From NCBI GenBank assembly GCA_024680595.1, contig JAILCB010000231.1, positions 1 to 45,665 of the forward strand: DNA of 45,665 nucleotides. The letters are read 5' to 3'. Shown piece by piece: positions 8,697 to 45,199 of this stretch. Source of the stretch: Lachnospiraceae bacterium (GTDB taxonomy: Bacteria; Bacillota; Clostridia; Lachnospirales; Lachnospiraceae). Positions within the stretch are counted from its first letter, which is position 1, and every line of letters begins with the position of its first letter. Position numbers and translations under genes: made by a program. Under the pieces are notes generated by a model, which was not told the DNA's origin, made no database searches, and saw only the letters and a list, made by a program, of their open reading frames with translations.

Positions 8697-10463
8697 TTAT
8701 TCCGGCAGCTCTGTCAAAAGCTCCAGTGAATAGTTCCTGTTCATATCCAGACACATCCGGATAAAGGTATCCAGAGGCACATTCTGCAGATTCTTCTGGC
8801 TTCCCCGGATATTAATGGAAACCGTATTCTCCTCCGCTTCCCTATCTCCCAGAACGATGATATAGGGATCCCTCATGAGCTTATACTGCTTAATCTTTAC
8901 CTTCATATTCTCATCGGAGTAATCCACCTCATAGCGGATCCGGTTCTGATAGAGAAGATCCGCTACCTTCTTTGCATACTCATTATTCTCAGGCCGGATG
9001 GGCACAATACCCACCTGCTTGGGAGAAAGCCAGAAGGGGAACTGGCCCTTGAAGTGCTCAATGAGAATACCGATAAAGCGCTCTAGAGAACCAAAAATAG
9101 CCCTGTGGATGAGAACCGGCATCTTCTGGCTGCCGTCGGAGGCCACATACTTCAGGTCGAAATTCAGGGGCAGCTGGAAGTCTAACTGGATGGTGCCCAT
9201 CTGCCACTCACGGCCCAGGCAGTCCTTCATCTTTAGATCAATCTTGGGTCCGTAGAAGGCGCCGTCTCCCTCATTCACCTCATAATTACCCTCTCCCAGC
9301 TTATTATCCAGAATTTTCTTTAGGGAAGCCTCAGCCTGATTCCACAGCTCAATATCGCCCATGAAGTTCTCGGGCCTGGTGGAAAGCTCCGCCGAATAGC
9401 TGAGTCCAAAGGTAGAGTAAATCTTCTTTGCAATATCCATGATATCGCTGATTTCATTCTCGATCTGATCGTCGGTCACGAAAATATGGGCGTCATCCTG
9501 ATGGAACTCCTGAACCCGGAATAAACCGTTTAACTGTCCTGACTTTTCCCTTCTGTGAATGACATCGGTCTGGGAGAAGCGCAGGGGCAGCTCTTTATAG
9601 CTCCTCTGACAGCTCCTGAAGACATTAATGGCATTAGGGCAGTTCATGGGTTTAATGGCATAGGTGGTATTTTCATCTATATTTACGATGAACATACCCT
9701 CTTTATAATGATCCCAGTGGCCGCTGGTAACCCAGAGCTGTTTCTCGCTGAGGACAGGACCTGAAATCTCCTGGTATCCGTGCAGTAAATGCTCCTGTCT
9801 CCAATAGTCCAGAAGGGCATTATAGGTGCACCAGCCCCTGGGCAGCCAATAGGGCATTCCGGGAGCCGTCTCATGAAACATAACGAGCCCCAGTTCCGGT
9901 CCCAGCTTTTTGTGATCCCTCTCCATGGCCTCTTTCAAAAGATTCAAGTGATCCTTTAGGGCCTTCTTGTCCGGAAATGCGAAAACATAGATGCGGGTCA
10001 GCTGATCCCTTTTCTCGTCACCCCTCCAATAGGAGCCGGATACAGACTTAATCTGAAAAGCCGCATTCATTAGATCCTGGGAGCTCTCCACATGGGGTCC
10101 CCGGCAGAGATCAATGAAATCATCTCCGGTCTCATAGACCGTAATAAGCTCGTCCTCAGGCAGGTCATTAATGAGTTCCGTCTTATACTTCTGATTCTTG
10201 AAGATAGAGAGAGCCTCCTCCTTACTGACCTCTTTCCTGACCCAGGTCTCGCGGCGCTTGATAATCTCACGCATCTTGTCCTCGATAGTCTTGAAGTCAT
10301 CCGTAGTGACAGGCCGGGGCAGCAGAAAGTCATAGTAAAAACCATCGGCAATCTGAGGTCCAATGGCATATTGGACGGTGTCCCCATAAAGCTCTATAAC
10401 CGCTTTCGCCAAGATATGAGAAAGGGAATGTCTGTAACAGCTTAAATATAGTTCCTTATCCAT
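8697..10463 (-). CDS. thrS: Threonyl-tRNA synthetase lacking the N-terminal TGS domain
   Basis: Charges tRNA-Thr. The 588-residue protein is shorter than the usual ~640 because it lacks the ~60-residue TGS (N1) domain: the start MDKELYLSCYRHSLSHILAK leads straight into the editing domain. Editing-site residues are present (H12 and H16 in RHSLSHILA; C120 and H124 in CRGPHV). The catalytic core has class II motif 2 (FRVQEFHQDDAHIF) and motif 3 (HRAIFGSLERFIGILIEHFKG), followed by an anticodon-binding domain. The ATG at 10463 is preceded by AAGGAGGAAACT; upstream in-frame codons have no such site. Only ~75 bases separate it from the upstream amidase gene, and no T-box leader is seen there, which is unusual for a firmicute thrS. 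Confidence 0.95.
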   Translation of the reverse strand: MDKELYLSCYRHSLSHILAKAVIELYGDTVQYAIGPQIADGFYYDFLLPRPVTTDDFKTIEDKMREIIKRRETWVRKEVSKEEALSIFKNQKYKTELINDLPEDELITVYETGDDFIDLCRGPHVESSQDLMNAAFQIKSVSGSYWRGDEKRDQLTRIYVFAFPDKKALKDHLNLLKEAMERDHKKLGPELGLVMFHETAPGMPYWLPRGWCTYNALLDYWRQEHLLHGYQEISGPVLSEKQLWVTSGHWDHYKEGMFIVNIDENTTYAIKPMNCPNAINVFRSCQRSYKELPLRFSQTDVIHRREKSGQLNGLFRVQEFHQDDAHIFVTDDQIENEISDIMDIAKKIYSTFGLSYSAELSTRPENFMGDIELWNQAEASLKKILDNKLGEGNYEVNEGDGAFYGPKIDLKMKDCLGREWQMGTIQLDFQLPLNFDLKYVASDGSQKMPVLIHRAIFGSLERFIGILIEHFKGQFPFWLSPKQVGIVPIRPENNEYAKKVADLLYQNRIRYEVDYSDENMKVKIKQYKLMRDPYIIVLGDREAEENTVSINIRGSQKNLQNVPLDTFIRMCLDMNRNYSLELLTELPE

Positions 10464-10539
10464 AGTTTCCTCCTTAGTGTGAAAATGTCTATATACCACA
10501 TATGTCAATCCGCATAATGCGGAAAAAATCGAAAATCAT

Positions 10540-11607
10540 TTACTGGGCTGATATAGAGTCCTTCAGCCCCCCTATGTTCTGGCCTTCCTGCTTTTCAGAC
10601 TCCCGGAAATAGGCATCCACCCCGTCTGCAAGCCCCTTTATCATGACTACCCGGAAGGAAGGATTAGCCATATTCAAGTCCTCCTCCCTATTTGTCATAT
10701 ATCCCAGTTCGAATATGGTCACGGGAACCTCCGCCCAGTTGATGCCGCTCATGGTATCTGTTTCCCTGATTCCCTCGCTCCTCATCCCCGTGGCGGCGAT
10801 ATAGGAGTCCAGTAGGCATTTCGACAGGCGCCTGCTGTCCTCATATATCTCCGGACAATAAGGGCTATTTGCTGTCGGGCAGAGGGCCAAAGCCCCTCTG
10901 ACAGAGGTGTTTTCACTGCCATTGGCATGAATTCGGATAAAAGCATCCGCATGGCTCTCGTTGGCAATGGCAGCCCTTGCGCTATTACTGATATTAATGT
11001 CATGTGTATCCCGGGTCATAATGACCCTGTACCCCCTGTTTATGAGCTCTGTCTCCAGAAGCTGAGAAATCTCCAGTGTCAGCTCATATTCCGCCAGACC
11101 GCTGGCCTGACCCGATGTCCCGCTAGAGACCTTGGGCTTTGTCTCTGTGGCCCCGGGCCCGATAGGCTCCTCACTGTAGTCCCCCTTAGCCTGATGGCCG
11201 GGGTCTATGACGACCAATCGATCCTGCTGCTGAACCGGCCCCGGCCCGGACGGTTCGGCTTCATTCTCTGAAATCAATGCATTATCTGATAGAGGATCCG
11301 GCTCAGGCTCTTTCTCTATCTCTGCTTTTGGAGGCTCGATGGGCTCCTGCGCCACACTTCCGGGCTCCTCTGCTCCGGAACCGGCAGCCAGACTGTCCGC
11401 AAACTCTTTGTAGCGGGTCTCCCGGCCGGCTCCTTCCTCTGTCTCTGTACTCCCCGTCTCCGAAGCAATTTCTACCGGCTCCTCTGTGGATGCTTCCGCG
11501 CTGCCCTTAGCCCCCACAAAGATTCCTACCATAAAAACAATGGCGAGTATTAGCACTGCGGCAAGGCTCAGGAGCAATATGATAAGTACCTGTGGCTTTT
11601 TACGCAT
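10540..11607 (-). CDS. Membrane-anchored N-acetylmuramoyl-L-alanine amidase (Amidase_3 family)
   Basis: Zinc-dependent cell-wall hydrolase that cleaves the MurNAc-L-Ala bond of peptidoglycan. The 355-residue protein starts [20 protein letters not shown], a signal anchor (membrane helix ~7-33). A Glu/Pro/Ser-rich linker of ~130 residues follows, then the Amidase_3 domain. Zinc and catalytic residues are visible: H in VVIDPGHQ, E in [13 protein letters not shown] in IRIHANGS, E in IFELGYMTN. The start ATG at 11607 follows GAGGTAGGATATATC; an in-frame upstream extension of 48 residues has no ribosome binding site. A promoter at 11687-11715 fits this start. It is a candidate for cell separation, sporulation or cell-wall remodelling; the exact role cannot be read from sequence. 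Confidence 0.93.
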
Positions 11608-35690: not shown

Positions 35691-35727
35691 AATCGGGTAA
35701 GGAGTCTCCTCCCTACCCGATTATTTT
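35691..35727. terminator. Terminator between convergent eno and the phospho-signalling operon
   Basis: AATCGGGTA (35691-35699) pairs with TACCCGATT (35714-35722), with inner GGAG/CTCC pairing. ATTTTT follows on the plus strand; on the minus strand TTGAGTTTT follows. It probably also ends the minus-strand operon, whose last gene stops at 35760. Confidence 0.7.
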
Positions 35728-35759: not shown

Positions 35760-37718
35760 TCAGAATCTCACCCGGAAGCAGACCTCCCCAATAGATACCT
35801 CGTCCCCGCTGCGCAGGCGGTTGGGGGCATATATCCGCATACCGCTAATAGCCGTGCCATATTCCGAATGAAGGTCCTCAATGTAAACCAAATTATTCTG
35901 GACATAAATCCTAGAATTCCTTGGGGAAAGATCCGGATCACTGAAGACGATATTGCAGGAGGGATCCTTGCCAACAAATAACTCATTGACTAAATTGAAG
36001 TCTCTGCCTTCCCCCACATAATTCCCGGTCAAAATCTCAATCCTCAAGGGTATAGAGGAACCGGCCGCTGCCTGGGCAGTCATGCCGTTACTGCTGTTAG
36101 CAGGCCCGGCTCCACCGGGATTCTCAGTTCTGCTATATCCATTTGAGGGGCCATTTCCCCCTCCCATCCCCTGTCCGCCGTCATAATAGCCGGGCGAATC
36201 CACATTCTTCGGCTTCTTCCGTAAAAGGATTAGGACAATCAGCAGAATTATAATGACAGCCGCTGCCATACATATGACTATGATCCAGGGGAAACCCTTC
36301 GTCTCTCCCTTTTCCTCAGGGCTTAGCTCCGTACCGGTGCTTTCCGTACCGGCGGCTTCCGTATCATCCTTCCCTATTTCCAGAACCTTCTCATCTTCAG
36401 CAGTTTCATCCTCCAGGCTCTCTTCCGTGCTTGAAGCAGATTCAGTTCCCTCCTCTGTTCCGGTAACCGGTTCAGGGGCTGTGCCCTCCTCCGTGTAATC
36501 CTCACTGGAAAGCTCCTCCCCTTCTGTAACAGAAACATTATCAATGGCTGCACTGCTAAAGGCCCTCTGTCCTGACACATATTCCAGCCGAATGCTAAAA
36601 GTATCCTTCTCAGGCCAGCCATCTACCTGAAAGTCCGTTCTATAGAGATTATCCGCAAATTCCACCAGCTCCTTGCCTGCCTCTTCGGGTTTTGTGTCCT
36701 CCAGAGAATAAATCTTTCCCCTTCCTGCCTTAAAGACATTATAGACCGGTGGATTGTAGCCATTATCAGTGAAAACAGCATGGGGGACAAGTCCCGGCAT
36801 CTTTTGGATTTTCTCCGTCAGATCAGCTACTGTTTTCTCAAGGCTATTCGAATCAGGCTTGAACCTGCCCTCTGTCGGGGCAGAACTGGTAAAACCTGCA
36901 ATATCATCCGACTCTCCGGGCTCACTGCCTTGCTCCGGACTGTTTTCACCCTCAGGCCGGGTCGGGCTCTCATTATCATTTCCCCCGTCCGGTATTCTGT
37001 CAATAATATTAGACCCTGAATCCCCACTGTCACCGGGATCATGGAGACCATCTGATATAAATATCAGATTTACCAAGTCTCCGGGAACCCTGTCCGAATC
37101 ATCCAGATAATCCAGGGCATCCGTCAGGGAACCATAAATATCCGTATCCTTTTCCTTGCCGTAAAGTCCCTCTATAAGGGAAACCACCTTTTCCACATCT
37201 GTGATATTTTCCTCTACGACCTGAAAGCTGCCCCCAAAGGAAGCCACTGTGAAAACCACGCTTCCATGAGACTCATTTTCAACCAGAGAACGTATAAATT
37301 TATTGACATTATTCTTATTATTAACCATTGCCCGGGACTTAGAGCTGTCCACCAGAATCAGATACTTAATATTAGAATCGCTTCTGGCAATAGGCTGGGG
37401 TGCCGCATTTGAAATAAAACTGTCGGAAGAATTCTCAAAGCTAAGAGACGCCGACTGCATTTGAAAGTCCCCATTGGCATTGGCAAAGGTATAGAGAACA
37501 TCTCCCATTCCATAGGCCGTAACCAAATCCACGGTCTCCGGAACACCGGAAAGATCGCCCTCTTGCATAGAACTATCAGAAATAGAATCAGGACTACCGG
37601 GAGTCTCTTCCGAAGTTTCCGGTTCAGGCTTGAAAAAACTACTGGCCTCTGCGGGCACTGTCAGCCCCGATATGATTAGAAATACTGATAATAAACCTGC
37701 AAATAAACGCTTTCTCAA
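35760..37718 (-). CDS. Exported VWA-domain protein with cytoplasmic FHA domain
   Basis: 652-residue single-pass membrane protein. Order: signal peptide (1-25, cleavage likely after PAEA), extracytoplasmic VWA domain (~115-360), a Glu/Ser/Thr-rich stalk (400-470), membrane helix (477-500), Gly/Asn/Ser-rich cytoplasmic linker, C-terminal FHA domain (~557-652). The VWA metal site is intact: D124-S-S-K-S128, T192 in DTDIYGSL, D223 in FISDG. The FHA domain is degenerate: GK in place of GR, and LSPRNSRI with Asn at the usual His. The start is TTG 37718, 6-7 bases after AAAGGAGA and 12 bases after the upstream phosphatase gene ends. Last gene of the kinase locus. The ligand of the VWA domain is unknown. 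Confidence 0.9.
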   Translation of the reverse strand: MRKRLFAGLLSVFLIISGLTVPAEASSFFKPEPETSEETPGSPDSISDSSMQEGDLSGVPETVDLVTAYGMGDVLYTFANANGDFQMQSASLSFENSSDSFISNAAPQPIARSDSNIKYLILVDSSKSRAMVNNKNNVNKFIRSLVENESHGSVVFTVASFGGSFQVVEENITDVEKVVSLIEGLYGKEKDTDIYGSLTDALDYLDDSDRVPGDLVNLIFISDGLHDPGDSGDSGSNIIDRIPDGGNDNESPTRPEGENSPEQGSEPGESDDIAGFTSSAPTEGRFKPDSNSLEKTVADLTEKIQKMPGLVPHAVFTDNGYNPPVYNVFKAGRGKIYSLEDTKPEEAGKELVEFADNLYRTDFQVDGWPEKDTFSIRLEYVSGQRAFSSAAIDNVSVTEGEELSSEDYTEEGTAPEPVTGTEEGTESASSTEESLEDETAEDEKVLEIGKDDTEAAGTESTGTELSPEEKGETKGFPWIIVICMAAAVIIILLIVLILLRKKPKNVDSPGYYDGGQGMGGGNGPSNGYSRTENPGGAGPANSSNGMTAQAAAGSSIPLRIEILTGNYVGEGRDFNLVNELFVGKDPSCNIVFSDPDLSPRNSRIYVQNNLVYIEDLHSEYGTAISGMRIYAPNRLRSGDEVSIGEVCFRVRF

Positions 37719-37730
37719 CTACATCTCCTT

Positions 37731-38492
37731 TCATCTCACCATCAAATTTAGGAGAGTCAGGTTATCATTACTCTTTCCGTCCACCCGGGAAATAATCCTT
37801 AAAAGCAATAGTTCTGTCCAGGCCATAGCATTTCCCGCTTTGAGGAAATCCAAAAGGATTTCCTCATCATAAAGATATTCCCAGGCCCCATCCGTACACA
37901 GGAAAAACCCGTCTCCGGGCTCTAAAGGCTCAGGGCATTCCTTTACCTCCGCTTCCCAACGATCCACTCCGCCAAGGGAACGTAGAAGTGCTGACTGATC
38001 CTCATCCGTATTTATCTCAGCCCTGCTAATTTCACCTACCCTAAACTTCTTATAGGCTACGGAATGATCCGCCGTAATGAACCGGATATCCCCCTTATGA
38101 ATATAGTAGAGCCTGGAATCCCCGACGTGGGCCCATACTGCCCTGTCCCCGTCAATGGTAAGGGCCACAGCCGTACTCTTCAGCTTGGCATCCCGCTCCT
38201 TCTGTAGAATTAACAGGCGCTCATTCGCTTCCTTCAGCTTCTCAGGGAGCCATAGGGTTCTGTCAGGAGATGACTGGGAAGAATCCTCTTTCTCCCATGC
38301 AGTCATCAATACATCCACGGCAGCTGAGGAGGCAACCTCTCCAAGCTGATGCCCTCCCAGGCCATCCGCAACGACAAAAAGCCCGTGCTCCCCCTCAGAG
38401 CTATAGGCGGCATAATCCTCATTATGGCCTCTGCCGCCCTTATTTGTATAACAAAAAGTATCTATCATCATATTCTGTCCAAACTTCCTCAA
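37731..38492 (-). CDS. PP2C-family serine/threonine phosphatase (first of two)
   Basis: 253-residue cytoplasmic metal-dependent phosphatase. All PP2C motifs are present: RGHNEDY, VVADGLGGHQLGEVAS, HVGDSRLYY, FLCTDGAWEYL and SNDNLTLL, which supply the metal-binding aspartates. It should remove phosphates placed by the kinase encoded at 41864-45106. The start is uncertain: TTG 38492 is 6 bases from AGGAAG, while ATG 38471 (MMIDTFCYTNKGG) fits the domain start but lies 12 bases from GAGGAAG. It begins 30 bases after the protease-FHA gene and precedes the VWA-FHA gene, suggesting it may serve those two membrane FHA proteins. Confidence 0.92.
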   Translation of the reverse strand: MRKFGQNMMIDTFCYTNKGGRGHNEDYAAYSSEGEHGLFVVADGLGGHQLGEVASSAAVDVLMTAWEKEDSSQSSPDRTLWLPEKLKEANERLLILQKERDAKLKSTAVALTIDGDRAVWAHVGDSRLYYIHKGDIRFITADHSVAYKKFRVGEISRAEINTDEDQSALLRSLGGVDRWEAEVKECPEPLEPGDGFFLCTDGAWEYLYDEEILLDFLKAGNAMAWTELLLLRIISRVDGKSNDNLTLLNLMVR

Positions 38493-38522
38493 CTCGCACT
38501 TCCTGTGGCAGGAAATTCAATT

Positions 38523-39974
38523 CTACATAAGCTCCACTCTGAGTGCATTTCCCTTTTCACCTACATAGAAGGTGTCTCCCCCTCTAAGGCGATAGGCCCT
38601 TCCCGCATCCAGCTTCTGTCCGTTTTGCAGGAATGTGCCATAGGTGGATTTGAGGTCTGTTAGGAGGAAGTCTCCGGATGCCGGATCCCAGGCAAGAGAA
38701 CAGTGCTGTCCGCTGACACCGGGTGTTCCTTCCTTAAACACAATACTGCAGACATCTCTATTTCTGCCAATCACAATCTGCTTGCCCTTGAGGGAAACCC
38801 TTTCCCCATGATGCTGGGCCGACAGGGACCTGACACAAGGGGTCTTTGCCTTCGACTGGGGCTGGGCCTGAGGCATAGGCTGGGGCATGGGCTGAGGCAT
38901 AGGCATGGGCTGGGCCATGGGCTCTGGCTGCGGTTTCTTTCTAAGTACCAGGAAGAGAATAATTCCTAGAAGTGCAACACCGCCTACAGCAATTCCAATA
39001 ATGACAGGCAGACTCAATCCGCCTTCCGCTTCCTCTTCCCCTGAAGGGGTACCGGGCGTGATTGTACCGCCTACTCCACCTGCTCCGCCTGCATCTCCCG
39101 TAACCGGTGAGCCTCCGGTAGAGGCATCTCCGCCGGTAGTTCCGCCGGTACTGCCGCCGGAACCACCCTCTGAAGCTCCTGACCCGTCCGAAAGCATATA
39201 GGGAATATTATTCATTTTCATAAGAGACAGGGCTTCATCAATATCTACCGCATAATACACATTATTGGCGGCATCCTCCACATAGGCCGTATTGATACCC
39301 ATAACCTCTTCTCTCTCGTTTACAAGGGGTCCGCCGGAATTTCCACTGTGAATATCCGCATCCGTCTGAATCCTCTTGACACCGGTTCCATGGGCAGTTA
39401 CAAGCCGGCTCATGGTGCCCACGGTCACAGAAACATCCTCCCGTCCCCATTGGGAGACCGGATCAGAATAATCATTCTCCGCAATAGCCGGGAAACCGAC
39501 AGCATAGACGCTTTGACCCTTCATGCTGTCCGAGGGGATACAGAGCCTGAAGGCCTTCCTTTTACTCGTAGGCTTTTCCAGTCTCAATATGGCAATATCC
39601 TTGGAAGCGTCATAGGCGACTACATAAGCCTCTTCATAATCATTGGAGTCAAAATAAACCCTCATCATGAGCTGGGCATTATAATAGTTTCCCTCAATAG
39701 GGATCTGAACCTTTTGTCCTGCCCCATTATTTAGAAAGTCCTCAATAACGTGATGATTTGTAATAATATATTGAGGGTTCTCCTCAGAATCTCCCACAAA
39801 GAAGCAACTTCCATAGCTAAAAATCCCGCCTTGCCCGTCCAGCTGGATATATGTGGCCATAACCGCTACCCGCTCACTGGCATAGTCCGAGTCAAAGCTT
39901 TCTGCCTGAACCGGAACAACCAGCAAAAGAGTCAGCAGAAAAGCCGTCATTAGCGACAATACCCTCTTTCTCAT
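38523..39974 (-). CDS. Exported trypsin-like serine protease with cytoplasmic FHA domain
   Basis: 483-residue single-pass protein. Order: signal peptide (1-24, VPVQAES), chymotrypsin/HtrA-type protease (~30-255), Gly/Ser/Thr-rich stalk (265-315), membrane helix (~322-345), a Pro-Met-Gln repeat linker (AQPMPMPQPMPQPMPQAQPQ), and an FHA domain (~385-483). The catalytic triad is complete: H75 (TNHHVI), D126 (SKDIAILRL), S213 (HSGNSGGPL). No PDZ domain, unlike HtrA. The FHA domain is canonical (IVIGRNRD, SGQHC, STYGTFLQNG), so it can bind phosphothreonine. ATG 39974 follows AGGAGGAGTTTCT. The topology puts the protease outside and the phosphopeptide reader inside. The substrate is unknown. Confidence 0.92.
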   Translation of the reverse strand: MRKRVLSLMTAFLLTLLLVVPVQAESFDSDYASERVAVMATYIQLDGQGGIFSYGSCFFVGDSEENPQYIITNHHVIEDFLNNGAGQKVQIPIEGNYYNAQLMMRVYFDSNDYEEAYVVAYDASKDIAILRLEKPTSKRKAFRLCIPSDSMKGQSVYAVGFPAIAENDYSDPVSQWGREDVSVTVGTMSRLVTAHGTGVKRIQTDADIHSGNSGGPLVNEREEVMGINTAYVEDAANNVYYAVDIDEALSLMKMNNIPYMLSDGSGASEGGSGGSTGGTTGGDASTGGSPVTGDAGGAGGVGGTITPGTPSGEEEAEGGLSLPVIIGIAVGGVALLGIILFLVLRKKPQPEPMAQPMPMPQPMPQPMPQAQPQSKAKTPCVRSLSAQHHGERVSLKGKQIVIGRNRDVCSIVFKEGTPGVSGQHCSLAWDPASGDFLLTDLKSTYGTFLQNGQKLDAGRAYRLRGGDTFYVGEKGNALRVELM

Positions 39975-40185
39975 AGAAACTCCTCCTAACCTTAATTCAC
40001 AGAATTAATTCAAGTCCCACCCGCTAGAATTAGCCAGGCATTGGTATCGGCTGTCATCTTCCAAACCGAATCCCTGTGGGTCTCCACTCCGGTAGACGTA
40101 AAAATCAATGTCTACTGTACCTTCTGCGCCACTTCTCCGTCACAGGAAAGTCATTTTCCAACGACAGACATTCAATCCTATATCT
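39975..40185 (-). other. Intergenic gap inside the phospho-signalling operon
   Basis: 211 bases between the second PP2C gene and the protease gene, in an operon whose other gaps are 3-50 bases. Most of it is the structured element at 40009-40127. The rest holds the protease ribosome binding site and about 58 bases after the phosphatase stop. No promoter of good quality was recognised, so the downstream genes may depend on read-through. Confidence 0.5.
40009..40127 (-). repeat. Structured intergenic element, copy 2 (related to 11838-11965)
   Basis: About 119 bases. In minus-strand order: GCAGAAG, stem GTAGAC-N12-GTCTAC, short stem GTGG/CCAC, CAGGGATT, GGAAGATGA, hairpin GCTA-ATTC-TAGC, and GACTTGAA at the 3' boundary, where similarity to copy 1 ends. 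TCGG and CCGA around GGAAGATGA can pair (TTGG and CTGA in copy 1). It ends about 35 bases before the protease start. Could be a leader RNA or an inserted mobile element. Confidence 0.6.
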
Positions 40186-40983
40186 TTAGTATCCGCACCG
40201 GATCACCAAAGCCGTGAAATTATCCTGATGTGGACGCTGTTTCCTGTATATCCTCTGTTCCATCTCGATGCAGGCCTCCGGCGGACTCATAGTCAAAAGG
40301 CATTCCCGAATCTCCTCTTCCGAAAGCACGCCGCCTACACCATCTGAACAGAACAAAAGCACATCCCTATTCTTTAATTGAAGCGGTCTCCTAAATGCAT
40401 CTATATCCGATAGTTCATCCATACCTACGAACTGGGTCAGGGCCGCCTCCTCAGGATCGGACCGTCCATCCTCCGGATCCATACTCCCTGCCCGTATCGT
40501 CTTCAGAAAAATACTATTCCTGCAATTATGCTCCCTATTAATACGGCTAAGCCTTCCGTCCCGCAAGAGATAGATAAAGCTGTCCCCCACACTGACAAAA
40601 TAGAGCTTTTCCTGGAAAAAAATGCCCCCAACTACAGTACTGCCGCCATCTCCCCCCAAACGCCTGAAAACCTCATTATTGGCATGATGAACGCTTCTCT
40701 GGAATTGAATGGAAAGATCCGAATTCCTATCCATGGCCTCGAAGTCAGAAAGCATGGTGGAAATCACGCACTCGCTGGCCACTTTACCATCCTGCATGCC
40801 CCCCATTCCATCGGCCACTATGGCTAAAAGTCCCTGCCTTAGAATCTCCGTCACATCCATGGCATTGGCGAAAGCAAAGGAATCCTCCTGCCTTTCCCTG
40901 CTGCCAATTCCCTGCAGATTTCCTACCTGATAGCTGAGAAGTCTCTTGGGGGGCCTTCTTTCCTCATTATTATTACTGTTCAT
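40186..40983 (-). CDS. PP2C-family serine/threonine phosphatase (second)
   Basis: 265-residue cytoplasmic phosphatase. PP2C motifs: GSRERQEDSF, IVADGMGGMQDGKVAS, VSVGDSFIYLL, LLFCSDGVGGVL and HQDNFTALV; GDSF replaces the common GDSR. The N-terminal ~15 residues (MNSNNNEERRPPKRLLS) are polar and disordered. ATG 40983 lies 3 bases after the stop of the upstream FHA gene, with AAGGATAATTT as the binding site, so the two are translationally coupled. It differs clearly from the other PP2C in the locus (only motifs are shared), so this is not a recent duplication. Confidence 0.93.
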   Translation of the reverse strand: MNSNNNEERRPPKRLLSYQVGNLQGIGSRERQEDSFAFANAMDVTEILRQGLLAIVADGMGGMQDGKVASECVISTMLSDFEAMDRNSDLSIQFQRSVHHANNEVFRRLGGDGGSTVVGGIFFQEKLYFVSVGDSFIYLLRDGRLSRINREHNCRNSIFLKTIRAGSMDPEDGRSDPEEAALTQFVGMDELSDIDAFRRPLQLKNRDVLLFCSDGVGGVLSEEEIRECLLTMSPPEACIEMEQRIYRKQRPHQDNFTALVIRCGY

Positions 40984-40986
40984 AAA

Positions 40987-41814
40987 TTATCCTTTACTCA
41001 GATTGGGTCCGGGATTCTTCAATCCCTCATTCCAGTTAAATCTGTCGCAGCAGAATGCCGCCAGAAGGAACATGCTCTCTCCGAACTCCAGCACATCATA
41101 AGGGTTTAGACTGGTTGGAACATAAATGGGCTGTCCGTTTAGGTAAATATTATTGGTGCTCTCCCCCGGAATAATTGTGAAATTATTGTGCCGGGGCTCA
41201 TAGGCGATGCGGGCGTGATTTTCTCTGGAAATAGCCTTATCCGACTCTATGCATATATCCATCCTCTCACTGCGCCCTATGGTATTCACGCGATCGAAGA
41301 GGCGATAATCCTTTCCTTTTTCGGGACCCTCAATACATACAAGCCAACCTACCACAGGCTCTCTGGAAAGATCCTTATGACCCAGGGCAACCGTCTTGTT
41401 CTGGGCCTCATTTCGCTTCCGGTAACCCTCCGGAGCCACTGTGGCACCTGTACTGTCCATTCCTCCCGGAGGGTTATAACCAACAGGTGACGTTTTCCCT
41501 ATACTAGTCTTTAAGCCGGCATCGCTGTCACCACCCCCTCCAAAGCCACTGTTAAAACCATTACCAAACTGATCTCCGCCATAGCCGCCTCCAAAGCCGC
41601 CGGCCACAGGAGCCGTTCCCCCTATGGAACCGTAGTCATTCATGAGCTCAGTACCGCCATAGCCGCCGAAACCGCCGCCAACAGGAGCCGTCGCACCAAT
41701 TCCCCCGGCCCCGCCGCCAAAGCTAACCTCATTTCCTCCGCCGCTGCAATACGGGCAGGATGGATATAGATCCGAATCATAAAGATGCCCCCGCCCGCAA
41801 TCTACTAGTGCCAT
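40987..41814 (-). CDS. Soluble FHA-domain protein with zinc-ribbon-like N-terminus and Gly-rich linker
   Basis: 275-residue cytoplasmic protein. N-terminal motif C6-x3-H10-x9-C20-x2-C23 (CGRGHLYDSDLYPSCPYC) looks like a small zinc site. Residues ~25-115 are Gly/Phe/Tyr-rich (GGGFGGYGG). The FHA domain spans ~165-255 (NTIGRSERMDICI, ISRENHARI, STNNIYLNGQPI). The linker repeats short threonine motifs: TAPV at 42 and 67, TSPV at 108, TVAP at 125, TVAL at 141. These are candidate phosphosites for the neighbouring kinase (inference), as in GarA/FhaB-type proteins. ATG 41814 follows AAGGAGGGTGAAGT, 50 bases after the kinase gene. Confidence 0.9.
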   Translation of the reverse strand: MALVDCGRGHLYDSDLYPSCPYCSGGGNEVSFGGGAGGIGATAPVGGGFGGYGGTELMNDYGSIGGTAPVAGGFGGGYGGDQFGNGFNSGFGGGGDSDAGLKTSIGKTSPVGYNPPGGMDSTGATVAPEGYRKRNEAQNKTVALGHKDLSREPVVGWLVCIEGPEKGKDYRLFDRVNTIGRSERMDICIESDKAISRENHARIAYEPRHNNFTIIPGESTNNIYLNGQPIYVPTSLNPYDVLEFGESMFLLAAFCCDRFNWNEGLKNPGPNLSKG

Positions 41815-41863
41815 ACTTCACCCTCCTTTTCTAATAGAATAACCTTTTTTTACATAAAAGCCT

Positions 41864-44800
41864 TTATTTATCTAAAGCGTATTTTCCCTGCGCTTCTTCC
41901 CTTGTAAGCAAGAGATTGGCATTATAACGTTCCACCTCAGAAAGTACCACATCTCTGTCAAATTCGCTGGGAGTATAGGTCCCTACATACCAGGTCTTTC
42001 CGTTAAAGTAACTCTGAAGCTCCCGGGAATCAAACATCCTGCCCCGTCTGGCATAGATTTCATTCCTTCCATAGCATAGGGTTTTGGAATCCAGCCCGGC
42101 CAGTTCCGACTCAGTTAACTTGACCGTATCGCTGTTGGGGAATATATAACTATCCTCAGAAGAAGCGGAAGAACCGGAAGAACCCTCATAAGCCGGCATC
42201 GAAATCACATTAGAAGTATCCACATCGCCCATATAGGAAGGCTTGGCGCCATCTACCTTTAAGGAAAACACCAGATCGGAAAAGTCCTGGATACATTGTT
42301 CCTGATTCTTGTCATCACAGAAGGCCCATATCTCCGCATAGGAGTCTCCCACTTCAAAAATGGCATCCAGCAGATACTTATCCTTTCCGTCGGATTTAAA
42401 CTTCACCATGACAAAATGAGACGGATATCTTCCATAATTAAAGGGTACCGCATCTGTCTGATAACTGCCATTATAGGGCGGATCCAGAAACTTAGCCACA
42501 TTCTTCTCCAATACCTTTGTTATATCCTCGCCGGAGGAAGCACAATAAGGAGCCACATGGAGGTGGATATTATCCAGATCACCGGCCTTGGGCGATATAG
42601 TAATGGAATGCTCCAGTGCATCAACCCCGCCAAAATCCGAACCTTCATTGACCATAAAGGACAGACCCAGATCCGAGGAATGATAAGATGTCAGATTGTC
42701 CTTATACTCACCTGTAACCTGGAAGCTCTCAGCCGCATGTTTGCATGCCTCCTCTACATTACCCTTCAGGGAACCGGGATCGATATAGTACCAGACATAA
42801 TAGCAGCCATAACCGCCGTGTCCGCTATAGAGATAGAGCTGATTTCCCTTCCCCAAATCCACATGGGCACATTGCTCTTTATAGCTTTCCACCGAGATAC
42901 CCTTCACATCTACCGTATCCAGAACATGAAACCAGGATTTGAGGAATTGGGAATCACTTTCAATAAGCTCCTTGAAATCAGCTGCCCCATAAATCCCGGT
43001 ATTTCCGGCAATATTGTGATGATTCAAATCCTCCTGGGCCAAAATCCCCTGGGCCGTATTCGAGGTAAATCCGGCCACCAACAGGCATTTGGAACCACCG
43101 GTTTCCTCATTATCAGTAAAGACCACATTTCTGCCGGGGTGATTCTCATCCTCAGTAATATAAAAGGCCTCAGGATATTCCAGATTAAACTCCGCACTGC
43201 TGCTGGTATAGGTCTTATAGGCCCCACTAAGTGTGAGCCCTTTGCCGTCTCCGGAGCCCTGTCCTACATCAGACGGTACAATGAAATGGGGTGCGTCCTC
43301 GTCGGTCCCGCCCTCAGTCGGACTCTCTGAGGCCACTATGTCAGCTACTTGCCCTGTCGCTGCAGTCTCCGTTTCCCGACCGGCCTCAGTTGAAGCGGGG
43401 GCAGAAGCCACAGCATCATCCTTCTTTCCTCCCGAAATAAGGATAACAGCCGCAACAATTCCCGCTACCGCAATTCCTCCGCCAATTAGCGCAGGAATAA
43501 GCCATTTAGCGCCTCCCTTTTTCTGGGAATCCTCACCGGCCCCATTTCCCCGGCTCCGGCCAATCTCCTGCTGACCAAAACTCTGGGATTCTGCCGTCTC
43601 CTGATTCCCGGTCTGACCCGTCAAAACCTGCCGGGCACCATTCTGACCTGCATCCGTCTGGGCAGGGTCATAATTCCCCTGGCCGTGATTCTGGGAAGCG
43701 CCATAATTCTGGCCCCCGTCCTGACCCTGGTAGTCTGCCGGATTATAATTCCCCTGGCCGTAATCCCGGGAAGGGCCATAATTCTGATCCCCGTCCTGAC
43801 TCTGGTAGCCTGCCGCCGGATTATAATTTCCTCCGCCGTAATCCCGGGAAGGGCCATAATTCCGATCCCCGTCCTGACTCTGGTAGCCCGCCGCCGGATT
43901 ATAATTCCCCCCGCCGTAATCTTGGGAAGAACCGTAATTCTGGCCGTCCTGGCCCTGATAGCCCGCCGCCGGATTATAATTCCCCCCGCCGTAATCCTGG
44001 GAAGGACCATAATTCTGGCCGCCCTGACCCTGATAAGCCCCGGTCCAGTCCGAATTCTGCCCGCCATAATTCTGGGGACTACCATAATTATAAGCCCCGT
44101 CCTGACCGCCATAAGGCGGATTCATGCCATAATTCTGCTGGCCGTAATTCTGGGAGGGGCTGTAATTCTGCCAGTTCTGTCCGCCATATTGCTGACTCTG
44201 GGCCATATCGGGAATATCCTGGCCCATTAGCCCCTGCTTTAATTCCCCCATAGTCTGGTAGCGGTCAGCAGGCTGGACAGCAAGCCCCTTCAGCAAAGCG
44301 GCCTCCACATTATCCGGAAGCTTTGCCCCCATATTATTGGGCGGGACCAAATCATCCTCATCCAGGCGATCTATAGAATCCGGAGGCCGTCTTCCCGTAA
44401 TAGCAAAGTAGAAACTGGCAGCCACAGAATATACATCCGTAAATGGTCCCTGTCTGCCGCGACGGGTGTATTGCTCTTTTGGCGCAAATCCATGCTTTAG
44501 AACCACGTCCAGACTCTTGCTCCGGTCTCCCAGACTGTATCTGGCAGCGCCAAAATCCAAAAGCTTTACCACTCCATCATTAGTAATGAAAATATTATCA
44601 GGGGTCACATCCCGGTGAATTATGCCCTTGGAATGCACGGAGCCCAGGGCATCCATAACAGGTCCCATAATATTCATGGCTTCCTGCCAGGGAATCCTGC
44701 CACCGTGAACCTCCAAATACTTCTGGAAACTCTGGCCCTCCACATATTCCATGACAAAATAGGCCGTCCCGTTCTCCTCGAAGTAACTGTAAACCCTGAC

Positions 44801-45106
44801 GATACCGGGATTTCCAATAAATTCCGCCAAAGTCTGGGCTTCCTTCAAAAAGCAATCCTTACCATAATTAAAGCTGTCTGTCATCTGTGCAGATAAAGGC
44901 ACGACAGTAACCTTATTTACCCTGGTCGCCATGGTGTCAGGCAAGTATTCCTTTAAGGCCACCAGCTGCCCGGACTTCCTATCCACTGCTTTATAGGTGA
45001 TTCCAAAGCCGCCCTGCCCCAAAATATCTCCAACAATGTACTTGCCCTGTAACACAGCATCCCGACGCAGTGCTAACGGATATTTTTCCCTGTCCCTCTC
45101 AGCCAT
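41864..45106 (-). CDS. Transmembrane serine/threonine kinase with Tyr/Gly/Gln-rich repeats and external YARHG domain
   Basis: 1080-residue single-pass kinase. Kinase domain ~22-290: P-loop GQGGFG (30-35), ATP lysine K52 (VALKEY), catalytic loop HRDVTPDN (164-171, Thr where most have Lys), DFG (184-186), FAPKEQY in the activation segment. Residues 303-487 are low complexity, with 4-5 tandem copies of a 25-residue unit (365-483). The membrane helix is 535-558. The external part (560-1080) has an Asp/Glu/Ser-rich stalk, a ~300-residue domain I cannot name, and a C-terminal YARHG-type domain (~997-1070, with RNEIYARRGRMF). No PASTA repeats, so it is not a PknB/PrkC-type peptidoglycan sensor. First gene of its operon, with a strong promoter at 45171-45199. 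Confidence 0.93.
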   Translation of the reverse strand: MAERDREKYPLALRRDAVLQGKYIVGDILGQGGFGITYKAVDRKSGQLVALKEYLPDTMATRVNKVTVVPLSAQMTDSFNYGKDCFLKEAQTLAEFIGNPGIVRVYSYFEENGTAYFVMEYVEGQSFQKYLEVHGGRIPWQEAMNIMGPVMDALGSVHSKGIIHRDVTPDNIFITNDGVVKLLDFGAARYSLGDRSKSLDVVLKHGFAPKEQYTRRGRQGPFTDVYSVAASFYFAITGRRPPDSIDRLDEDDLVPPNNMGAKLPDNVEAALLKGLAVQPADRYQTMGELKQGLMGQDIPDMAQSQQYGGQNWQNYSPSQNYGQQNYGMNPPYGGQDGAYNYGSPQNYGGQNSDWTGAYQGQGGQNYGPSQDYGGGNYNPAAGYQGQDGQNYGSSQDYGGGNYNPAAGYQSQDGDRNYGPSRDYGGGNYNPAAGYQSQDGDQNYGPSRDYGQGNYNPADYQGQDGGQNYGASQNHGQGNYDPAQTDAGQNGARQVLTGQTGNQETAESQSFGQQEIGRSRGNGAGEDSQKKGGAKWLIPALIGGGIAVAGIVAAVILISGGKKDDAVASAPASTEAGRETETAATGQVADIVASESPTEGGTDEDAPHFIVPSDVGQGSGDGKGLTLSGAYKTYTSSSAEFNLEYPEAFYITEDENHPGRNVVFTDNEETGGSKCLLVAGFTSNTAQGILAQEDLNHHNIAGNTGIYGAADFKELIESDSQFLKSWFHVLDTVDVKGISVESYKEQCAHVDLGKGNQLYLYSGHGGYGCYYVWYYIDPGSLKGNVEEACKHAAESFQVTGEYKDNLTSYHSSDLGLSFMVNEGSDFGGVDALEHSITISPKAGDLDNIHLHVAPYCASSGEDITKVLEKNVAKFLDPPYNGSYQTDAVPFNYGRYPSHFVMVKFKSDGKDKYLLDAIFEVGDSYAEIWAFCDDKNQEQCIQDFSDLVFSLKVDGAKPSYMGDVDTSNVISMPAYEGSSGSSASSEDSYIFPNSDTVKLTESELAGLDSKTLCYGRNEIYARRGRMFDSRELQSYFNGKTWYVGTYTPSEFDRDVVLSEVERYNANLLLTREEAQGKYALDK
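43658..44014 (-). repeat. Tandem 75-78 bp coding repeats in the kinase gene
   Basis: Four to five in-frame copies encode NYGPSQDYGGGNYNPAAGYQ followed by xQDG and one or two variable residues (kinase residues 365-483). Copies differ by a few residues (P/S/A, Q/R, G/Q), which indicates expansion and drift. Located between kinase domain and membrane helix, so cytoplasmic. Confidence 0.92.
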
Positions 45107-45170: not shown

Positions 45171-45199
45171 ATTATATAATTCAAACCCCTATCCGTCAA
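45171..45199 (-). promoter_or_regulatory. SigA-type promoter of the kinase operon
   Basis: TTGACG (45194-45199, minus) and TATAAT (45171-45176) with 17-base spacing: five of six and six of six consensus bases. Leader of about 60 bases to the kinase ATG at 45106, preceded by AAGGGGATTTTGAATT. Confidence 0.85.

Follow-up and report, generated by a model that had tools for sequence, protein, structure and literature searches.

The 45,665-nucleotide contig JAILCB010000231.1 of a Lachnospiraceae bacterium (assembly GCA_024680595.1), which was analysed at full length and is referred to as the window, carries six genes on its minus strand between positions 35760 and 45106. They code for a receptor-like Ser/Thr kinase, an FHA protein with a putative zinc ribbon (Z), a PP2C phosphatase, a membrane-anchored trypsin-like protease with an FHA domain (T), a second PP2C phosphatase, and a VWA protein (V). 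A first-pass annotation had described a six-gene minus-strand locus with kinase, FHA, PP2C, protease and VWA domains. All six open reading frames (ORFs) are present, and Pfam detected every one of these domains except VWA, which scored below the cut-off. The ribbon of Z, its Thr-motif linker and the swapping of kinase ectodomains were absent from that annotation. The topologies were deduced from hydropathy and positively charged residues. The features are as follows.

45171..45199, minus strand: sigma-70-like promoter TTGACG-17-TATAAT, 5' of the kinase gene (11 of 12 matches, consensus only)
41864..45106, minus strand: gene 1, receptor-like Ser/Thr kinase of 1080 amino acids with the kinase inside, one transmembrane segment (TM) and a YARHG ectodomain (ORF, Pfam, hydropathy)
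44378..45037, minus strand: kinase domain, Pkinase (Pfam; catalytic residues conserved family-wide)
43511..44227, minus strand: repetitive cytoplasmic linker of the kinase, rich in G/Q/Y/N (composition)
41909..42148, minus strand: YARHG domain in the kinase ectodomain (Pfam, E 1.2e-20)
40987..41814, minus strand: gene 2 (Z), putative zinc ribbon, Thr-motif linker and FHA, 275 amino acids (ORF, Pfam, profile, predicted structure)
41746..41799, minus strand: ribbon of Z, C6-x3-H10...C20-x2-C23 (pattern; predicted local distance difference test score, pLDDT, 85-90)
41371..41718, minus strand: disordered linker of Z with Thr motifs at T42, T67, T108, T125 and T141 (pLDDT mostly <50)
41080..41283, minus strand: FHA domain of Z (Pfam, profile)
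40186..40983, minus strand: gene 3, PP2C phosphatase of 265 amino acids (Pfam; metal residues kept)
38523..39974, minus strand: gene 4 (T), signal peptide, trypsin-like protease, TM and FHA, 483 amino acids (Pfam, hydropathy, profile)
39294..39812, minus strand: Trypsin_2 domain of T with H75, D126 and S213 (Pfam, alignment)
38559..38777, minus strand: FHA domain of T with R404, S421 and H424, and with Tyr445 where FHA domains usually have Asn (alignment)
37731..38492, minus strand: gene 5, PP2C phosphatase of 253 amino acids (Pfam, alignment)
35760..37718, minus strand: gene 6 (V), signal peptide, VWA, TM and degenerate FHA, 652 amino acids (Pfam, hydropathy, profile)
37047..37361, minus strand: VWA domain of V with D124, S126, S128, T192 and D223 (alignment; Pfam below cut-off)
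35787..35975, minus strand: FHA domain of V without the phosphate-binding Arg and His, with K584 and N601 instead (Pfam, alignment)
35691..35722, minus strand: intrinsic-terminator-like hairpin of 14 pairs, 3' of gene 6 (consensus scan)

The intergenic gaps from gene 1 to gene 6 are 49, 3, 211, 30 and 12 bases. The promoter-like site ends 64 bases before gene 1, and the hairpin has by far the longest stem among the terminator-like sites. Consensus scans of the whole stretch yielded 21 promoter-like and 15 terminator-like sites, compared to shuffled means of 12.0 and 10.1, respectively. The six genes probably form one transcription unit. Because the window is one entire contig of a genome in 318 contigs (85% complete, ~4% contamination), the contig end truncates the sequence upstream of gene 1. 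Rfam gave no match in the window at gathering scores. With PADLOC (anti-phage defence; PD-T4-6, mad6), the kinase, the protease and one PP2C domain matched models, as single-domain matches only; Z, the first PP2C and V matched none.

An alignment scan of a genome collection with gene 2 matched 581 stretches, 514 of which are relatives, and the best 80 were analysed, with at most ~10 kb fetched on either side. Domains in these loci were called by means of home-made profiles whose seeds came from the window and the loci themselves, save for proteins run through Pfam. According to their record titles, the best 80 are mostly from Lachnospiraceae, Oscillospiraceae and other Clostridia, many of them from rumen or gut; the outliers Muribaculaceae (L127) and Deltaproteobacteria (L152) may be binning errors. 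The record titles of L101 (Ruminococcus sp. zg-924) and L151 (Flavonifractor sp. An92) make no mention of a metagenome-assembled genome. The core order FHA / PP2C / trypsin-TM-FHA / PP2C (Z-P-T-P) is contiguous in 68 of these 80 other loci, far beyond chance. It is directly preceded by a kinase in 49 loci and directly followed by V in 37. A kinase of at least 200 residues occurs in 71 loci, and the VWA gene, present in 41, is the least constant part of the set; some loci end at contig edges. Four of the 12 loci without Z-P-T-P stop at a contig edge (L093, L113, L116, L133), and in the remaining ones the composition or the arrangement of the genes is different. Clustering of the Z proteins at 70% identity gave 55 clusters, 47 of which contain at least one Z-P-T-P locus. 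No flanking gene is fixed around the core across the 80 loci; an ABC ATPase family occurs in 11 of them at varying offsets, and dynamin-like genes lie near three. The gene set is thus not strain-specific, and the gene order, for which the first-pass annotation had suggested such a test, is conserved. A close relative of the protease at E 1e-20 was found in two of the 48 genomes of the genus, one of them the window's own; completeness of at least 90% together with contamination of at most 5% applies to 22 of these 48. In the other genome with such a relative, the locus (L177) consists of Z-P-T-P and, after it, a YARHG kinase; it has no VWA gene and occupies a different genomic site. Of 393 genomes sampled across the class, 36 (again counting the window's own) gave a match to the Z family with an E-value of 1e-25 or better; among the matches listed, only 16 of the 36 genomes have one that starts in the ribbon, the rest matching the linker or FHA part. 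Searches with Z gave no match in phage records at E 1e-10 and, in IMG/VR, 15 pattern matches with no relative among them.

The Cys-His-Cys-Cys pattern of the ribbon and the Arg of the FHA domain are each kept in 79 of 80 Z proteins, and the Ser and His of this FHA domain are conserved as well. In an AlphaFold2 model of Z (24 sequences, mean pLDDT 67.2), ribbon and FHA domain have high confidence, and most of residues 33-148, including T42, T67, T108 and T141, have a pLDDT <50; T125 lies inside a block of mean pLDDT 53. The linker of the window Z contains the repeats GATAPV, GKTSPV, GATVAP and NKTVAL. When the linker columns of the 80 Z proteins were ranked independently of any motif, the best conserved were T141 (80), T42 (78), T125 (77) and P128 (77); the top three are all Thr. 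The motif G[KAR]T[VAIMS][AGPVIL], referred to below as the strict tag, was picked after the linkers had been inspected. It occurs 157 times in the 80 linkers (mean 2.7 and at most 8 after shuffling) and is present in 62 of them (three or more copies in 35, none in 18). A narrower form of the motif has Thr in 156 cases and Ser in two, against a linker background of 557 Thr and 525 Ser. With one Z per cluster, this narrower form occurs 94 times (shuffled mean 1.4, maximum 5 in 500 shuffles), at 94 Thr to 1 Ser on a background of 357 to 358. The scan that retrieved the loci relied on FHA-domain peptides, not on Thr-tag peptides. FHA domains bind phosphothreonine rather than phosphoserine, and Thr-only conservation in a disordered stretch beside FHA proteins therefore fits phosphothreonine docking. 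It is likely, judging from these sequence patterns, that the Thr-motif array of Z gives phosphorylation its address. Tags are also present in the cytoplasmic linkers of eight kinases and of V in L080, L081, L082 and L084, which are closely related to one another. The strict tag occurs 10 times in kinase linkers (shuffled 1.28), four times in V linkers (0.19) and twice in protease linkers (0.41). A second tag pattern was not enriched in kinase linkers (3, compared to 2.34 shuffled).

All 73 T proteins examined retain the protease triad, which bears out the earlier assignment of an intact trypsin-like enzyme. In the FHA domain of T, the Arg is kept in 72 of 73 proteins and the Ser and the His in all 73. 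By hydropathy, T and V each have a hydrophobic segment at the N terminus and a second TM that is followed by RKK; together with the single TM of the kinase (residues 533-562) and the Pfam match of YARHG, this agrees with the topology first proposed, namely single-pass protease and VWA proteins and a kinase with an external YARHG domain. The best matches of the protease domain among solved structures are HtrA/DegP/Do proteases. These proteases also match best in NCBIfam, though below the cut-off (degP_htrA_DO, 73.7 bits on T compared to 416.2), and no PDZ domain was found in T by Pfam. With gene order, triad and FHA residues all kept, the suggestion that a conserved locus joins genes for cytoplasmic Ser/Thr phosphorylation to an extracytoplasmic protease stands. 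A search of plasmid records with the protease at E 1e-15 or better gave a single distant match, on a 267-kb record of Subdoligranulum variabile (L178); at positions 8845-11229 of that locus, trypsin domain, TM and a kinase-like part lie in one protein, the last seen with a home-made profile (Pfam sees no kinase).

The ectodomains of the kinases are swapped on a conserved kinase domain: for the 55 kinases encoded directly before Z, mean pairwise identity is 62.5% in the kinase domain compared to 14.7% in the ectodomain. An ectodomain of at least 60 residues is present in 95 of 108 kinases, and 85 were scanned with Pfam; the ten omitted are mostly short or near-duplicate. The families, which overlap, are LRR_8 (14), LRR_5 (12), MORN (11), DUF5050 (6), YARHG (2), PASTA (2), WG (1) and RCC1 (1), as well as TPR and DUF285. 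YARHG, found in two of the 85 scanned ectodomains, was therefore rejected as the defining sensor and is not a defining part of the gene set, in which it had first been included. Constant wiring beneath exchangeable outer domains reads as outside-in signalling, and the swapped outer domains thus favour this direction over an inside-out one. The linker of the window kinase is repetitive and prion-like, with a G/Q/Y/N fraction of 0.615 over 239 residues; a fraction of at least 0.5 occurs in 10 of the 69 kinase linkers of at least 50 residues.

From these elements the following self-contained pathway can be proposed, in which we place slightly less belief than doubt: the receptor kinase phosphorylates the Thr tags of Z, the FHA domain of the protease binds them, and the PP2Cs reset the system. 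The kinase, whose outer domain is exchangeable and in the window is YARHG, would phosphorylate the repeated tags in the disordered linker of Z. These are of the G-K/A-T-V/A-A/P-P type, joined by a conserved K-T-V, and once phosphorylated would become docking sites for phosphothreonine-binding FHA domains. Candidate readers are the cytoplasmic tail of the HtrA-like membrane protease and Z's own FHA domain. Binding of the tags would cluster or re-order the protease and so alter proteolysis outside the membrane. V might join via phosphate-independent contacts and, on the outside, act as an adaptor or as a partner that binds substrates, and the two PP2Cs would reset the tags. It is from sequence that we infer the phosphorylation of the tags by the kinase, their binding by the protease FHA, the change in protease activity, and what is sensed and cut. 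Two observations count against taking this pathway too literally. The usual FHA Asn is replaced by Tyr or Phe in the T family, by Tyr in the window T. Furthermore, the best NCBIfam model for Z is FhaB (36.8 bits, cut-off 125).

The tags might instead serve Z's own FHA domain, in the manner of GarA. Among solved structures, the Z profile is nearest to GarA/OdhI, including GarA with phosphorylated Thr22 (E 2e-8 to 3e-8), and a Thr motif N-terminal to the FHA domain is the regulatory layout of GarA in the available part of PMC12321487. The FHA Arg of Z is almost invariant, whereas the usual Asn is lost in the protease FHA. However, in many Z proteins several tags are distributed along ~100 residues, with at least three strict copies in 35 of 80, which is beyond the need of an intramolecular switch; tags are also found in some V and kinase linkers; and the Arg, Ser and His of the protease FHA are kept in 72-73 of 73 proteins. 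We regard this alternative as rather unlikely, and as the first to be weighed beside the pathway from kinase to protease.

According to the first-pass annotation, three FHA readers gather kinase, protease and VWA protein and thereby govern surface adhesion or proteolysis. Locus and topology are indeed conserved. The VWA domain, too, holds up: its Pfam score is 22.6 bits compared to a cut-off of 27, the metal-site residues are present as first claimed, and the V family profile matches solved VWA domains. Three FHA domains do exist, but the one of gene 6 has Lys for Arg and Asn for His and can hardly be counted as a reader. In the V family, Arg is kept in 11 of 42 proteins and His in 11 of 42, so that the FHA lacks each of them in 31 of 42, window included. 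Since most V proteins lack the Arg and most lack the His, V is unlikely to be gathered by phosphothreonine, contrary to the original proposal, and V is found in 41 of the 80 loci only, some of which end at contig edges. It is improbable that all three act as readers in this way.

Equally improbable is a locus that controls a type VII-like export machine, whose exported proteins the protease would process. FHA/kinase modules control secretion machines elsewhere, and related VWA-TM-FHA or trypsin-TM-FHA genes lie among WXG100/YukD/EssC genes in L021, L066 and L071. Against this, no match to WXG100, YukD or EssC was found in any of the 80 canonical loci as far as they were fetched, and membership in a type VII locus was therefore rejected; the home-made profiles were built from few seeds, so that the absence of EssC, WXG100, YukD, dynamin-like and PrsW genes is weak evidence. 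In addition, the type VII-linked protease copies (L066 4450-6081 and L071 4807-6291, beside WXG100 genes) have lost the triad His and Ser and are likely pseudoproteases, as judged from their sequences. A type VII secretion locus is also found on another contig of the window's own genome (C27, L021 2053-14519), with an EssC that carries an FHA domain, with YukD and several WXG100-like proteins, and with a VWA-TM-FHA protein whose FHA retains Arg and His. Elsewhere, a PrsW-type intramembrane protease with FHA (L056 7587-9062) and a dynamin-like protein with FHA adjoining another dynamin-like gene (L055 13698-15563, 16200-18338) were seen; L075 and L076 are the same contigs as L056 and L055. That independent signalling genes were clustered by chance or by shared expression, as the varying flanking genes and genomic sites might suggest, is hardly credible given that the four genes keep one order in 68 of 80 loci, that such a locus occurs in 47 of 55 clusters, and that the flanks have no gene in common.

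A more far-reaching scheme can also be drawn up, which we hold with distinctly more doubt than belief. In this interchangeable-sensor pathway, with LRR, MORN, YARHG, PASTA, TPR and other outer domains on one conserved kinase domain, a multi-copy phosphothreonine code on a scaffold would be read by the FHA tail of the protease, an inside mark would thereby control outside proteolysis, sister versions would tag the protease itself, and different tags would insulate modules from each other. A second set in the window's own genome (contig C272, L020 918-12688) comprises Z, two PP2Cs, a kinase-FHA fusion, a VWA-TM-FHA protein and two further kinases; no trypsin gene was found in the 14 of 23.5 kb examined. 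Its Z carries T-L/I-P-L tags, and the tags of the two modules of this one genome thus differ (TVAP/TAPV vs TLPL). In a second family, which is Z-less, two tags of the ETTLL/ETSVL type lie just before the protease FHA in nine of nine proteins, compared to any such tag in one of 73 Z-family proteases. Most Z-less trypsin-FHA/PP2C/kinase loci hold a nearby protein of 1500-2200 residues, often after a small TM protein (L062 14966-19900, also L061, L171, L173, L174 and L175). The one in L062 has Big_2 domains and is cut by the locus end. It is possible that this large protein is a client of the protease. If the scheme is true, many gut and rumen Clostridia possess a complete modular receptor-to-protease pathway with an exchangeable sensor and fixed wiring, and a bacterial example of FHA-read multi-site Thr tagging that acts across the membrane; the exact Thr residues, FHA residues and protease triad are available for testing.

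No description of this gene set was recognised in a literature search restricted to openly licensed papers. Several known systems share parts of it. Like HtrA/DegP/Do proteases, T has a trypsin-like domain with a His-Asp-Ser triad; unlike them, it has no PDZ domain detected by Pfam and a cytoplasmic FHA tail in its place. Compared to PASTA kinases (PknB/PrkC/Stk1), the window kinase scores 150.6 bits against an equivalog cut-off of 450 and has YARHG but no PASTA. The TerY-P phosphorylation triad consists of kinase, PP2C and VWA; our literature search found no paper on it. In actinobacterial GAP1-N2 systems, which are GTPase-centred, kinase(-zinc ribbon), PP2C and vWA genes are adjacent, as kinase, PP2C and vWA genes are here, where dynamin-like genes also lie near 3 of 80 loci; the accessible portion of PMC7159879 mentions neither a trypsin-TM-FHA nor a Z protein.

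The archaeal ArnA-ArnB system of Sulfolobus, as far as the excerpt of PMC6509490 goes, comprises a zinc-finger and FHA protein, a vWA protein, Ser/Thr kinases and a phosphatase, and modulates archaellum expression. Z likewise combines an FHA domain with a putative zinc-binding motif, here of the Cys-His-Cys-Cys pattern; the Arn finger is of the RanBP2 type with four Cys, so the ligands differ. ArnA and the ArnB homologue VWA2 are among the solved chains that the V profile matches. However, where V has a TM and a C-terminal FHA domain, the vWA partner of that system has a beta-sandwich and, at its C terminus, a phosphorylated helix bundle, and no protease is named in that excerpt (PMC6509490).

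In the type VI secretion system (T6SS), the membrane kinase PpkA, the phosphatase PppA and the FHA protein Fha1 form a Thr-phosphorylation switch that follows envelope events, according to the portion of PMC12133291 at hand. Kinase, PP2C and FHA protein are likewise encoded together here. The output there is T6SS firing, whereas the constant neighbours here are protease and PP2Cs and the candidate outputs lie outside the membrane. The TagH/VI_FHA model (TIGR03354) is not reached by genes 2, 4 and 6 (13.5, 26.3 and 18.5 bits, cut-off 120.25).

GarA/OdhI, an actinobacterial FHA regulator, is the closest solved FHA protein by sequence profile, and Z shares with it Thr residues N-terminal to the FHA domain (the invariant T141, as well as T42 and T125); in the consulted part of PMC12321487, the corresponding regulatory Thr motif is phosphorylated by Ser/Thr kinases. 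The OdhI model gives 20.2 bits on Z compared to a cut-off of 200, behind FhaB, and the window Z has no ETTS motif. In contrast to GarA/OdhI, Z has a ribbon and often several tags, and its gene adjoins those of a membrane protease and PP2Cs. The locus is a variant of kinase/PP2C/FHA signalling.

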